NCBI GenBank assembly: GCA_030754235.1 | Contig: JASMAS010000015.1 | Location: 1 to 64,000, forward strand | Reading direction: 5' to 3' | Origin: Litorilituus sp. | Lineage (GTDB): Bacteria > Pseudomonadota > Gammaproteobacteria > Enterobacterales > Alteromonadaceae | DNA length: 64,000 bases | Shown here: positions 10,435 to 15,058 of the stretch, one piece after another | Position numbering within the stretch: the stretch's first letter is position 1 | Layout of the letters: each line of letters starts with the position of its first letter | The notes under the pieces: model-generated | Seen by the model: only the letters and a program-made list of their open reading frames with translations | What the model was told of the DNA's origin: nothing | Database searches by the model: none | Program-made: the position numbers and the translations under genes

Positions 10435-11250
10435 TTAGCGCTTTAAGCGTATAAAGCATATGCTCAGAATAAAAAGAGTTAGTAACGCACTACCACCACC
10501 ATGCAGCTCTACTACTTCTATATAAGGCTCGTCGTAATCAGCACTTTCTAACGGTATAGCATAAAGTGCGTTACTGTCATCAGAGCTATAGCTCGCTACG
10601 ACATCACTATATCCCACTTCGTATAAATCAATTAGCACATCGTAATAATCGCTTGGATAGCCAGATAAAAATGAGGTAATCACTTGATATTCATCTAAAT
10701 CTGTATTGCCGTTGATAATAAAGCTATCAGTGGTATAGTAATGTGTCCAAGGGCCGCCGTTTTTACTTAGGTACAACAGTGCATAAACGTTACCTAATTG
10801 GTTACTCGTGTAGCTAAAAATATCAGCATCAAAGGTCACATTCAAAGTTTGATAAAAGCTATCGCCATCAATATCATCTAGTAAAAAGCTGGTTGCGCTA
10901 TAAATAGCAAAGTCGGCATAACTGTTATGAAGCAAAGTCGTTTTGTTATGGTGTTGCGTGTCTTTATTTTTTGTAGCTTTTACAAACGTTGTTTTTGAAC
11001 TACTTAATATCTCTTCTCGCGTTTGGCCTGTCGCTTTGCCGCTAAGTTGATCCGCTATTAAGCTTGCCATTGTGTTTTTGGGTATATCAGGTCCTTTTTT
11101 GAATTGACCTTGAGAAATAGATCTATAGTTATTAGTGACTGAATTGTCTTTTGCATAAGTACTGGGAAAGAAAAAGAGTGAGATTAGCATCGATAAAATA
11201 ATAACTATTGCTATCCAAGGTGTTTTTTTATCATGGTATGTTGTGAACAT
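10435..11250 (-). CDS. Secreted protein with C-terminal GlyGly-CTERM sorting signal
   Basis: The 271-residue product has an N-terminal signal segment (hydrophobic 13-31, likely cut after Ala33 in STYA) and a C-terminal tail HGGGSALLTLFILSICFIRL. That tail is a Gly-rich motif, then a membrane helix, then basic residues: the layout of GlyGly-CTERM substrates, which are cut by rhombosortase and leave by type II secretion. The middle (about 100-245) is rich in Asp, Ser and Tyr and looks like a beta-sandwich of the choice-of-anchor type, though I do not recognise a defined function. It is divergent from the PepSY/two-component operon, and a direct-repeat half-site pair faces it at 11300-11316. Function unknown. 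Confidence 0.65.
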   Translation of the reverse strand: MFTTYHDKKTPWIAIVIILSMLISLFFFPSTYAKDNSVTNNYRSISQGQFKKGPDIPKNTMASLIADQLSGKATGQTREEILSSSKTTFVKATKNKDTQHHNKTTLLHNSYADFAIYSATSFLLDDIDGDSFYQTLNVTFDADIFSYTSNQLGNVYALLYLSKNGGPWTHYYTTDSFIINGNTDLDEYQVITSFLSGYPSDYYDVLIDLYEVGYSDVVASYSSDDSNALYAIPLESADYDEPYIEVVELHGGGSALLTLFILSICFIRLKR

Positions 11251-11299
11251 GGTATATCCTTACTGACATTGTGTATGTTGGTATTAAAACGCAGTAAAG

Positions 11300-11316
11300 A
11301 TGAATATAAGCTGAAC
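11300..11316 (-). promoter_or_regulatory. Possible response-regulator box facing the GlyGly-CTERM gene
   Basis: On the minus strand the sequence is GTTCAG-N5-ATTCAT, a degenerate version of the ATTCAG-N5-GTTCAG repeat found at 11340 and 13804. The spacing of 5 is kept and one half-site is exact. It lies about 50 nt before the gene at 10435-11250. Confidence 0.35.
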
Positions 11317-11339: not shown

Positions 11340-11356
11340 ATTCAGCAAACGTTCAG
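11340..11356 (+). promoter_or_regulatory. Direct-repeat operator ahead of the PepSY-regulator-kinase operon
   Basis: ATTCAG-CAAAC-GTTCAG is a hexamer direct repeat with 11-bp period, the geometry of OmpR/PhoP-type response-regulator boxes. The identical half-sites and spacing recur at 13804-13820. It lies 73 nt before the PepSY gene, whose operon encodes such a regulator, so autoregulation is likely. Confidence 0.65.
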
Positions 11357-11428
11357 TTGCTATGCTTTATGCTATTAATTAAGCTATAGCAATAGATTTA
11401 ACATTTAATGTGATTACGTGGAATAACA

Positions 11429-11728
11429 ATGAAATTTGCACTCACTTTAGCTTTTCTTATTTTAACTTTCTTACCTATGAGTGTGCACTCTCATGGGAGC
11501 TTCACTAATGCTATAACCCCTCTCAAAGCAAACCAGCAAGCTAAACCACAATTAAAAGTAAAAAGTAACAAAAAAGCCGCTCAATTAGCGAAGGCACGTT
11601 TAGGTGGAAAAGTACTTAAAGTGAAGAAAAAAAATTCAGGTTACCGGGTGAAATTAATCAAAAAAGACGGTCATATCGTTTCAGTTCATGTTGATGCTAA
11701 AACGGGCAAAGTAAGTCGAGGTAACTAA
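11429..11728 (+). CDS. Small secreted PepSY-domain protein
   Basis: The 99-residue product has a signal peptide (1 to about 21, VHS/HG) and one PepSY-like domain at about 50-97 (AKARLGGKVLKVKKKNSGYRV, then KKDGHIVSVHVDAKTGKV split). PepSY proteins are periplasmic and are often encoded beside two-component systems or peptidases. The stop lies 2 nt before the response-regulator start, so this is the first gene of a three-gene operon. It is unusually basic (about one Lys in five residues in its mature part). A role as a periplasmic modulator of the adjacent kinase is inference. Confidence 0.8.
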   Translation: MKFALTLAFLILTFLPMSVHSHGSFTNAITPLKANQQAKPQLKVKSNKKAAQLAKARLGGKVLKVKKKNSGYRVKLIKKDGHIVSVHVDAKTGKVSRGN

Positions 11729-11730
11729 CA

Positions 11731-12411
11731 ATGCGTTTATTACTGCTTGAAGATGATCTTGCCCTACAGAAAAATCTGAATGATCATTTAGTGGCTGCTA
11801 ACTATGTAGTTGATTTAGCAAGTGATGGTGAAGAAGGATTATTTCAAGGACAAGAATATCCTTACGATGCAGCTGTTATTGATATTGGCTTACCTAAACT
11901 TGATGGCATCAGCGTTATTCGATTATTGCGTGAGAAAAATATCGATTTTCCTATTTTAGTGTTAACAGCCAGAGGTAGTTGGCAAGATAAAGTTGCCGGA
12001 TTAGATGCTGGCGCAGATGATTACTTAACTAAACCTTTTCAGCCTGAAGAGTTATTGGCACGCTTAAATGCTTTGATCCGTCGCTCGGCAGGGCAGGCAA
12101 GCCCATTGATTAAAAATGGTCCCTTAGTGATCAATACAAAAAGCTTGCAAGTTGAAATAAATAATCAAGTAATAAAACTGAGTAGCTCTGAATACAAGTT
12201 ATTAGAATATATGATGCTGCATCTAGATGAAGTCACTTCTAAGTCGGTATTAACTGAACATATTTATGATCAAGACTTTGATCTTGACTCTAATGTTATA
12301 GAAGTATTTATCAGGCGGTTGAGAAAAAAACTCGATCCTAATAGTGACTATAACTTTATTGAAACGCTGCGTGGCCAGGGATATAAATTAAAACGACTAT
12401 CGACGACATGA
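11731..12411 (+). CDS. OmpR/PhoP-family response regulator
   Basis: The 226-residue product has a receiver domain (1-115) with acidic pocket EDD at 7-9, phosphoacceptor Asp51 (VIDIGLPKLDG), Thr79 and Lys101 (YLTKPFQ), then a winged-helix DNA-binding domain (about 125-222) ending FIETLRGQGYKL. This is the PhoP/QseB/OmpR type. It overlaps the kinase gene by 4 nt (ATGA), which indicates translational coupling. The likely binding sequence is the ATTCAG-N5-GTTCAG repeat found upstream of this operon and of the DUF3300 gene. Closest relatives appear PhoP-like, but I avoid the symbol because the signal is unknown. Confidence 0.95.
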   Translation: MRLLLLEDDLALQKNLNDHLVAANYVVDLASDGEEGLFQGQEYPYDAAVIDIGLPKLDGISVIRLLREKNIDFPILVLTARGSWQDKVAGLDAGADDYLTKPFQPEELLARLNALIRRSAGQASPLIKNGPLVINTKSLQVEINNQVIKLSSSEYKLLEYMMLHLDEVTSKSVLTEHIYDQDFDLDSNVIEVFIRRLRKKLDPNSDYNFIETLRGQGYKLKRLSTT

Positions 12412-13772
12412 AAAATATATTTCACGCGCATTTGTGGTCGATGAATTCCCTTAAAGTTAGGTTATTACTCAGTACGTTAATTATGACGCTATCCGTGCTG
12501 CCAATTATAGGGTTTACGTTATCTAATGCCTTTGAGCAGCAGTTAAACCTTGCCACACAAAATGAACTTAAAGCGTATAGCTACTCTATTTTTACTGTTG
12601 CAGAAGTTGAAAATTATCAACTTGTTATGCCTGAGCAGTTATTAGAAAACCAATTTAATGTTAGTCAATCTGGTTTGTACGCAGTTATATCTCCATTAGG
12701 CTCTAGTAAACAACATAACAATATGCTGTTGTGGCAATCACAATCCATGCTAACTGTTACATTGCCTGAATATTTGCCTGCGCCTAAGGTTGGTCAAACT
12801 TTATCGTCAACCATAGAGTTATCAGGAAGTGAGCACATACTATACAGCTTTAGTGCAAGTTTTTCTAGTAATGGCCAAGACTTCCCTATTACCCTGCATT
12901 TAATTAAAAGTCAGCAAGAATTTCTCACCGCATTAAGTGATTTTAGGCAAAAATTATGGTTATGGTTATTTATTCTTATGGTGGTATTTATTGTAGTGCA
13001 AGTAGTGTGGTTATTATGGACTCTCAAACCTTTAACCCGTTTAAGGCTTGAACTTGAGCATATTGAAAAAGGGCAACAAAAAGTATTAGAAGCAAATTAT
13101 CCTCTTGAATTAATGAAAGTAACTCAGCAATTTAATACACTATTAATTACTGAAGAAAACCAACGAACAAGATACCGTAATGCTCTATCAGACTTAGCGC
13201 ATAGTTTGAAAAACCCCTTAGCCGTTATCCAAAGCCAAACCAATATTTCTGACAGTGCTAATGAACAGTTGCAGCGTATTAACCATATTGTTGAGCATCA
13301 ATTAAAAAGAGCGCAAAGTGCAGGACAGTCTTCATGGCATTTGGGGGTCCCGGTTAATACAGTAACTGAAAAATTGATTAAAACCTTAGCTAAAATTTAT
13401 CAAGATAAGCAATTGTCTTTCAATGTTGAGGTTGCTGTTCATGCTACTTTTAGAGGCGATGAAGCCGATTTAATGGAGATGCTTGGCAATCTATTGGACA
13501 ACGCCTGTAAAGCAGCGGTCAGTCAAGTGTCAATAAAAGCGATAACAGTGGGTAAAAAATTGACTATTGAAATTGCTGATGATGGTCAAGGAATAGATAA
13601 ATCCGAACAAGCACTTATTTTGTCTCGCGGAGGCCGTGCTGATACTTATCAGTTAGGACATGGTATTGGTTTAGCTATTGTTAATGATCTTATCACCAGT
13701 TATCAAGGGCAGTTATCGATTGGTAAATCATCTGAACTTTCAGGGGCATCTTTTACCCTTTTTTTTGAGTAA
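12408..13772 (+). CDS. Sensor histidine kinase paired with the preceding regulator
   Basis: The 454-residue inner-membrane kinase has TM1 at about 18-38, a periplasmic sensor of about 145 residues, TM2 at about 184-205, a linker, the phosphoacceptor His265 in SDLAHSLKNPLAV, and the ATP-binding domain with N-box LLDNACKA (362-369), G1 DDGQGI (391-396) and G2 GHGIGLAI (417-424). The layout is that of PhoQ-type kinases. Start ATG 12408 overlaps the regulator stop; ATG 12441 (MNSLKVR) is an alternative that would still keep TM1. The sensed signal is unknown; the neighbouring PepSY and DUF3300 proteins suggest an envelope signal. Confidence 0.94.
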   Translation: MKNIFHAHLWSMNSLKVRLLLSTLIMTLSVLPIIGFTLSNAFEQQLNLATQNELKAYSYSIFTVAEVENYQLVMPEQLLENQFNVSQSGLYAVISPLGSSKQHNNMLLWQSQSMLTVTLPEYLPAPKVGQTLSSTIELSGSEHILYSFSASFSSNGQDFPITLHLIKSQQEFLTALSDFRQKLWLWLFILMVVFIVVQVVWLLWTLKPLTRLRLELEHIEKGQQKVLEANYPLELMKVTQQFNTLLITEENQRTRYRNALSDLAHSLKNPLAVIQSQTNISDSANEQLQRINHIVEHQLKRAQSAGQSSWHLGVPVNTVTEKLIKTLAKIYQDKQLSFNVEVAVHATFRGDEADLMEMLGNLLDNACKAAVSQVSIKAITVGKKLTIEIADDGQGIDKSEQALILSRGGRADTYQLGHGIGLAIVNDLITSYQGQLSIGKSSELSGASFTLFFE

Positions 13773-13803
13773 AATTATGCTACCAATACTTGTTTAACAA
13801 GTT

Positions 13804-13820
13804 ATTCAGCTTGTGTTCAG
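13804..13820 (+). promoter_or_regulatory. Direct-repeat operator ahead of the DUF3300 gene
   Basis: ATTCAG-CTTGT-GTTCAG has exactly the half-sites and spacing of the repeat at 11340-11356, while the spacer differs. It lies 51 nt before the DUF3300 start, downstream of the kinase stop, and suggests that this gene is a target of the adjacent regulator. Confidence 0.65.
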
Positions 13821-13870
13821 TTTAGTGTTGTTAACCTTATTATCAATCAATAGCAATAAGGAAAACATTC

Positions 13871-15058
13871 ATGAAACACCTCATTTTACTGCTTAGTTTA
13901 ATCCCCATGACTTTGTTAGGTTGCTCAACGGTTCGGGCACAAGAGCCACCATTATCTATCACACAGAAAACACAAGAGCCGGTACTACTTACTGATGCCG
14001 AGCTAGCTCAAATGTTAGCGCCTATTGCTCTTTATCCTGATAGCTTACTCACTCACATTCTCATTGCTGCAACTTATCCTATTGAAATTGTTGAAGCACA
14101 TCGCTGGTTGAAAAAAAATAAACAGCTAAGTGTCAAAAAGCTTGGCAAATTAGTAGAAAACCTTGATTGGGACGAAAGTGTTAAGGCGTTAATCAGTTTT
14201 GAGCGTGTGTTGAGTCGTCTAAGTGACAACTTAACATGGACATTGCAACTAGGTGATGCTTTTTTACAAGATGAAGTAAGATTATTGGACAGTATCCAAG
14301 CTTTAAGAAATCAAGCAAAAATCGCCGGCAATTTAGATAAAATGGATAACATGGACGTTAGCTATGATAATGATAATATTGTTATTGAACCCGTAGAAAA
14401 AGAAATTGTTTACGTGCCTTATTATGATACTCGAATGATTTATGGTACTTGGCATTGGGCATCATTCCCACCGGTTTACTGGACACCTCATCATAGTGCT
14501 CATGTAAGTTATTATCATCCTTTTCACTGGCACTCAGGTGTTCATATTTCGTTTAATTACTTTTTTAGTGCTTTTCATTGGCATAATCGCCATGTGGTTG
14601 TAGTTAAACCTCATCGAAGTCGCTATTATCGTTCCCGTCATTCCATCTCACGTGGCGGTTATGCAAAACGTTGGAAACATCAAGTAAGTCATAGGAAAGG
14701 AGTGGCGTATCGCAATAAGCATATCAGCAAAAAGTATCGCAGTGACCGCGTAAGAATACATAAGGCAAATAAACACTTAGATGGTAGAGTTGAGGTTAAA
14801 GGTACGCATAACCGAGTAATGGATAAGTTAGTGTCTACACACCAAGTTATAAATAACAAAGCGCAAACAACCGTGCATTTTAAGCATAAAACGGTTAAAG
14901 AACCGGTAAAAACAAAGCAGCAGTATAAGCCATATAATAAGCAGTATAAGCGCGTCAGTAAGCATCAGAAAAGCTTACCGCATAAAAAACAGCATCAGTC
15001 ACGTGTGAAAAATACTACTAAAAATAAGGCTGTTAAAAAGTATACAAAAGAAAGGTAA
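13871..15058 (+). CDS. DUF3300 lipoprotein with His/Tyr-rich and Lys-rich regions
   Basis: The 395-residue product starts with a lipoprotein signal ending LLGC (lipidated Cys18). Residues about 40-190 match the DUF3300 family (LAPIALYPDSLLTHILIAAT and VVYVP-like EIVYVPYYD). A histidine- and aromatic-rich stretch follows (about 195-240, HPFHWHSGVHISF), then a strongly basic tail rich in Lys, His and Gln. The His cluster suggests metal or surface-polymer binding, but this is only inferred from composition. It has its own promoter region with the direct-repeat operator shared with the upstream two-component operon. The family has no established biochemical role. Confidence 0.85.
   Translation: MKHLILLLSLIPMTLLGCSTVRAQEPPLSITQKTQEPVLLTDAELAQMLAPIALYPDSLLTHILIAATYPIEIVEAHRWLKKNKQLSVKKLGKLVENLDWDESVKALISFERVLSRLSDNLTWTLQLGDAFLQDEVRLLDSIQALRNQAKIAGNLDKMDNMDVSYDNDNIVIEPVEKEIVYVPYYDTRMIYGTWHWASFPPVYWTPHHSAHVSYYHPFHWHSGVHISFNYFFSAFHWHNRHVVVVKPHRSRYYRSRHSISRGGYAKRWKHQVSHRKGVAYRNKHISKKYRSDRVRIHKANKHLDGRVEVKGTHNRVMDKLVSTHQVINNKAQTTVHFKHKTVKEPVKTKQQYKPYNKQYKRVSKHQKSLPHKKQHQSRVKNTTKNKAVKKYTKER

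Follow-up and report, generated by a model that had tools for sequence, protein, structure and literature searches.

A predicted PhoP/PhoQ-like envelope circuit with one conserved box at three promoters of its own locus

A short direct repeat stands before two neighboring transcription units in the window, i.e., in the whole stretch of 64,000 nucleotides of Litorilituus DNA analyzed here. One unit encodes a PepSY protein, a response regulator and a histidine kinase, the other a DUF3300 protein. Which regulator uses this repeat, and how many promoters does it serve?

Results

One box with a fixed −10 distance at three promoters

A sequence-only reading of the window had described ATTCAG-N5-GTTCAG at 11340 and 13804 with different 5-nt spacers, and both coordinates were confirmed in the sequence. 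Conservation in the loci of relatives brought out a further box on the minus strand; this divergent box and its promoter were absent from the earlier reading. The locus comprises the following features.

10435..11250, minus strand: choice-of-anchor H family protein, 271 aa (NCBIfam NF038116, E 1e-39), divergent from the operon
11283..11288, minus strand: −10-like hexamer TTTAAT belonging to the divergent promoter, at +28..+33 relative to the first base of the box
11300..11316, minus strand (read 11316 to 11300): third PhoP-type box, GTTCAG-CTTAT-ATTCAT, facing the choice-of-anchor-H gene
11340..11356, plus strand: PhoP-type box ATTCAG-CAAAC-GTTCAG, preceding the PepSY-regulator-kinase operon
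11368..11373, plus strand: −10-like hexamer TATGCT, 11 nt past the PepSY-operon box
11429..11728, plus strand: small PepSY protein, 99 aa, with a signal-peptide-like start (by eye)
11731..12411, plus strand: OmpR/PhoP-type response regulator, 226 aa, with Response_reg and Trans_reg_C domains
12408..13772, plus strand: PhoQ-like sensor histidine kinase, 454 aa (PhoQ model, E 1.1e-58)
13804..13820, plus strand: PhoP-type box ATTCAG-CTTGT-GTTCAG, preceding the DUF3300 gene
13832..13837, plus strand: −10-like hexamer TAACCT, 11 nt past the DUF3300 box
13871..15058, plus strand: DUF3300 protein, 395 aa (Pfam PF11737, E 3.3e-86)

In all three cases, exactly 11 nt separate the box from a −10-like hexamer T(A/T)NNNT, and in the window sequence the divergent box departs from RTTCAG-N5-RTTCAG in its last base. 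A sigma-70 scan listed none of the three hexamers (0/3), and its total was no better than that of shuffles (19 vs 18.9); the scan hence neither supports nor excludes them.

When the 64 kb window was simulated 300 times with a first-order Markov model, RTTCAG-N5-RTTCAG had a mean of 0.037 matches per copy, and two matches occurred together in 0/300. The genome (3,325,531 bases, i.e., 3.33 Mb, in 112 contigs) was searched with the reversed pattern as control. The looser TTCAG-N6-TTCAG was not enriched (6 matches vs 7 in the control), and the bare RTTCAG-N5-RTTCAG was found three times, compared with two control matches. Its third genomic copy, on contig 69, lies within an open frame without a box plus −10 match and was set aside as chance. 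The pattern RTTCAK-N5-RTTCAK-N11-TWNNNT, partly fitted to the locus because K was permitted after inspecting relatives, occurs three times in the whole genome, each time at the locus and before one of its genes, with no control match. The sequence-only reading had itself raised the objection that the motif might be frequent and without promoter bias. The box plus −10 escapes this objection (3/3 at promoters of the locus), whereas the bare repeat stays near its control and is thus weak evidence alone; the signal is carried by position, the fixed −10 and conservation.

Conservation within the genus

At a threshold of E 1e-40, the regulator was found in 37 of 39 genus genomes, with the divergent anchor-H gene beside it in 37/37. 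Three strict box plus −10 matches are present at the module in 34 of these 37; over all 39 genomes, the module has three in 34 and none in 2, and the remaining three genomes have two (2 genomes) or one (1 genome). The two genomes without the regulator are also without module boxes, anchor-H gene and full DUF3300 gene, and one of them has a 35-residue DUF3300 match (E 3.6e-5). Sorting by eye assigned 107 of the 131 strict matches in the genus to the module and 24 elsewhere, compared with 42 for the reversed control.

After removal of 16 duplicates, the PepSY and anchor-H set comprised 38 loci, of which 37 came from the genus and one from another family; the DUF3300 set, after removal of 22 duplicates, comprised 39, with 37 from the genus and two from elsewhere. 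The PepSY-operon box was found in 38/38 loci (no mismatch in 31, one in 7) and the DUF3300 box in 39/39 (37 exact, one with one mismatch, one with two). Over its 38 loci the anchor-H box had no mismatch in 7, one in 30 and two in 1. At 11 nt, T(A/T)NNNT followed in 36/38 PepSY, 37/38 anchor-H and 39/39 DUF3300 loci. Column information reached 1.4–1.8 bits for TTCAG, 0.9–1.6 bits for the purine positions and 1.3–1.8 bits for the −10 hexamer of the divergent promoter (38 loci); the last base of the anchor-H box, mostly T, had 1.0 bits. The 21 columns upstream of the box stayed at or below 0.7 bits, except for a T adjoining the box.

Genes intervene between kinase and DUF3300 in eight relatives, some of them on the opposite strand in four, and the DUF3300 gene kept its own box in 8/8. 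Some relatives have a SecD/SecF-like pair in this position, identified with Pfam in L097 (4568-7323); similar frames are present in L100 and L111. At another locus, L103 (G009:C4:207500-213500), regulator and DUF3300 were each matched as overlapping pieces with stops between, as if frame-disrupted. All three boxes with −10 persist there despite the broken frames, which may reflect decay or sequencing error.

We consider it very unlikely that another OmpR-family regulator encoded in the genome binds the boxes and that the adjacent pair is merely a target. Many OmpR-type regulators use 11-bp direct repeats, and genome G048 (85% complete) has a DUF3300 gene with an exact box and gave no match to the regulator at E 1e-80; such boxes could thus serve another regulator. 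Yet regulator and module boxes are missing together in two of 39 genomes, strict matches off the locus remain below the control (24 vs 42), and a PhoQ-like kinase is found together with a motif that equals the PhoP box (see below). Control by the adjacent regulator, which the sequence-only reading had held probable for its own operon and the DUF3300 gene, is supported by the boxes at both promoters and by this joint absence.

Wider distribution of the box

A wider sample consisted of the best 80 of at least 586 named loci, which suggest a place for the window among Colwellia; the sample overlaps the genus set, so the two sets are not independent. It was grouped into 25 Colwellia-type loci (Colwellia, Cognaticolwellia, Thalassotalea, Litorilituus and two MAG records grouped by gene order), 21 of Shewanella and Ferrimonas (Shewanella-type), 21 of Pseudoalteromonas and 13 others. 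A first count required box and −10 and allowed up to two mismatches; for a recount, the −10 was dropped and one mismatch allowed.

In the first count, the Colwellia-type loci among these best 80 of at least 586 had box and −10 at PepSY in 23/25, at DUF3300 in 22/22 and at anchor-H in 25/25. None needed more than one mismatch, and the background was 0.0016 per region whether no mismatch or one was allowed. Together with the genus data, this conservation refutes the view that the repeats match by chance or are left over from a promoter duplication, an explanation to which we give practically no credence. The bare motif without genome-wide enrichment would suit it, whereas no simulated window held two copies, and spacers and flanks differ between the copies. 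The sequence-only reading had already argued that the repeat is not a recent copy, and the differing spacers and flanks, with repeats conserved across the genus, bear this out.

For Shewanella-type loci, again among the best 80 of at least 586, the first count gave 2/21 at PepSY, 7/20 at anchor-H and 12/16 at DUF3300, all of the latter at two mismatches. In the recount, the box was found at PepSY in 16/21 and at anchor-H in 18/20, with no match elsewhere in the loci, and at DUF3300 in 0/16. The second half-site at these anchor-H and PepSY boxes is mostly TTCAT or TTCAC (e.g., L206, L210 and L219), consistently altered in its last base relative to the Colwellia form. A −10 of the window's form is mostly missing in Shewanella and Ferrimonas, which weighs against the circuit proposed below. 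In the remainder of the best 80 of at least 586, box and −10 were found at PepSY in 18/21 Pseudoalteromonas loci and in 1/11 of the others. In ten of the 13 other loci, 0.5–0.7 kb separate an upstream box from the frame for PepSY or the regulator, and in two such loci that were read the gene behind the box encodes a glycine-zipper protein. A Microbulbifer and a Moraxellaceae MAG locus (L251:3497-4042 and L252:3477-4067) show an exact box, a glycine-zipper gene and then PepSY, regulator and kinase. The glycine-zipper family includes SlyB, a PhoP target in enterics.

Boxes were counted by eye in 28 further loci of the order. Of the 16 loci with a regulator identity of at least 66%, 14 had a box with at most one mismatch on the PepSY side, and 15 had one on the divergent side; at 57–61% identity (12 loci), it was found on the forward strand in 7 and on the other strand in 0. 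A DUF3300 scan of named genomes gave no match.

Another family, f7 (13 genomes, of 2.3–2.8 Mb except for one of 4.4 Mb), has 4–7 box plus −10 matches per genome, with control matches of 0 in 10/13, 1 in two and 3 in one. These counts suggest that family f7 may run a larger regulon on the same code.

The regulator–kinase pair

Among five E. coli regulators, PhoP was closest to the regulator of the locus (43% identity). In a model scan PhoP came only second, with 196.6 bits after RppA with 200.7 and before the CztR-type model with 191.2. NCBIfam equivalog cut-offs were missed throughout, i.e., 196.6 vs 336 bits for PhoP, 199.2 vs 497 for PhoQ and 200.7 vs 250 for RppA.

The kinase was matched by the PhoQ model 35 orders of magnitude ahead of the next model (E 1.1e-58 vs 1.6e-23). 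None of the other 23 proteins of the genome that match the PhoQ model scores as well (E 2.3e-59, vs 1.3e-22 for the next of the 24). Compared with five E. coli pairs, PhoQ was closest (161 bits vs 58), the catalytic half being 33% identical, and among solved structures PhoQ catalytic domains came top (1.3e-41, vs 1.9e-17 for CpxA). A profile comparison of its sensor with the PhoQ sensor gave nothing beyond shuffles. The sensor is acidic, with a median net charge of −8 over 36 sequences, and the acidic patch of PhoQ is absent: 36/36 aligned kinases have at most four D/E per seven residues, compared with six in E. coli PhoQ. Mg2+ sensing should hence not be assumed. From these comparisons the pair is PhoP/PhoQ-like; as the curated cut-offs were missed and the acidic patch is missing, we do not file it as PhoP/PhoQ.

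PepSY, anchor-H and DUF3300 proteins

The PepSY protein matched Pfam PepSY_2 (E 3.9e-5) and PepSY (E 1.2e-4), both just under the curated cut-offs, and its profile matched a solved PepSY protein (5.2e-5). It is strongly basic, with a net charge of +18 after residue 22 and a median of +14 in 55 distinct sequences. The anchor-H protein ends in a GlyGly-type C-terminal tail (by eye); we found no open-access paper on choice-of-anchor H.

The tail of the DUF3300 protein is basic and rich in His, Lys and Arg (charge +15 to +48, median +36.5, in 38 distinct sequences). A charge-based contact of the basic PepSY protein or of this DUF3300 tail with the acidic kinase sensor is conceivable. The sequence-only reading had labeled the DUF3300 protein a lipoprotein. 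This label fits the window, where LLGC is encoded (13871-13930), and does not extend to the relatives: such a cysteine was found in the first 35 residues of 0/37 other distinct sequences, thus DUF3300 is not a lipoprotein throughout the genus. Searching solved structures with DUF3300 gave one unrelated match (E 0.089). According to excerpts of PMC9600279, yacH, the DUF3300 gene of E. coli, is counted among CpxR-regulated genes and has a link to cationic peptides, and its deletion raised protamine survival.

Discussion

E. coli PhoP/PhoQ is the closest of five E. coli pairs tested, and its acidic PhoQ patch is missing here. No PepSY gene was found in the E. coli phoPQ region examined, and the E. 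coli PhoP box is of the GTTTA type. In the literature excerpts on which our comparisons draw, the PhoP consensus of Pseudomonas aeruginosa, GTTCAGNNNNNRTTCAG, rests on gel shifts and on mutated half-sites at retS (PMC3156716) and also on ChIP-seq (PMC7916210). The locus motif equals GTTCAGNNNNNRTTCAG, with R allowed at the first position here and the anchor-H box differing in its last base. The sequence-only reading had noted that the 11-bp period fits OmpR/PhoP-type regulators and had not named the P. aeruginosa PhoP box. The kinase shares its PhoQ-like catalytic half with P. aeruginosa PhoP/PhoQ, whereas the PepSY partner gene and DUF3300 belong to the present locus. According to the same excerpts, P. 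aeruginosa PhoP binds several loci (oprH, arnB, retS, rsmZ); here, the strict pattern stands at three promoters of one locus.

The operon has its counterpart in Vibrio cholerae DbfQRS, where a secreted PepSY protein is likewise followed by the response regulator and then the kinase (PMC12714742). The excerpts of that paper report that DbfQ, the PepSY protein, binds the kinase DbfS and favours its phosphatase state, and they describe DbfR as acting widely on biofilm, metabolism and motility, whereas strict boxes are confined to one locus here. In the searched text of that paper, no binding site is named and no DUF term appears. A third system is FeuN-FeuP-FeuQ of Sinorhizobium meliloti, for which excerpts of PMC3616915 give the candidate FeuP site TTCA-N7-TTCA. 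As proposed for the present locus, a negative modulator is encoded with a regulator-kinase pair, and the TTCA core and 11-bp period are the same; unlike here, the host is an alphaproteobacterium and at least 14 genes including ndvA are involved (PMC3616915). A plasmid search gave 220 records, all below 60% identity, with FeuP among the 20 matches listed. Taken together, the three sites suggest that Pseudomonas PhoP, Sinorhizobium FeuP and the present regulator might share one TTCA-N7-TTCA code.

We propose that the locus is very probably a self-contained PhoP/PhoQ-like envelope circuit, a prediction made from sequence. The phosphorylated regulator would bind RTTCAG-N5-RTTCAK boxes as a head-to-tail dimer. 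The box would stand in for the −35 element at three promoters, and the regulator would activate from the fixed 11 nt distance to the −10. Predicted targets are its own PepSY-regulator-kinase operon, which would amount to positive autoregulation, and the genes for DUF3300 and for the divergently encoded choice-of-anchor-H protein. By analogy with DbfQ and DbfS, the basic PepSY protein probably keeps the kinase in its phosphatase state and would thereby provide negative feedback; an envelope disturbance would release the PepSY-held kinase.

That the regulator instead represses the three promoters, with the box blocking RNA polymerase, appears very unlikely to us. The layout found here, in which the box precedes the −10 at a constant distance of 11 nt, is the one expected of activation, and results for dbfQRS suggest positive autoregulation (excerpts of PMC12714742). 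Repression has its precedent in P. aeruginosa, where PhoP represses retS and rsmZ from boxes between −10 and start codon (excerpts of PMC3156716).

Within the proposed activating circuit each element has precedent; the PhoP box and the PepSY-regulator-kinase operon of Vibrio DbfQRS are already known. In the open-access literature, we found no description of the combination, in which three promoters make up a regulon that hardly extends beyond its own locus and always includes DUF3300 and anchor-H. A further reading, which we regard as unlikely, is that the regulator serves its own locus only and that DUF3300 and anchor-H would be working parts of the sensing loop, beyond mere outputs. As an example, the basic DUF3300 tail and the basic PepSY protein may compete for lipopolysaccharide or for the acidic sensor of the kinase. 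If true, such a closed loop would give DUF3300 and choice-of-anchor-H proteins a functional setting for the first time in these bacteria.

With this analysis, the PhoP-like system of Colwellia and relatives gains a likely binding site and a compact regulon. It ties DUF3300 and choice-of-anchor H, two families of unknown function, to PepSY-linked envelope signalling, in a three-promoter system that is small enough for complete testing.
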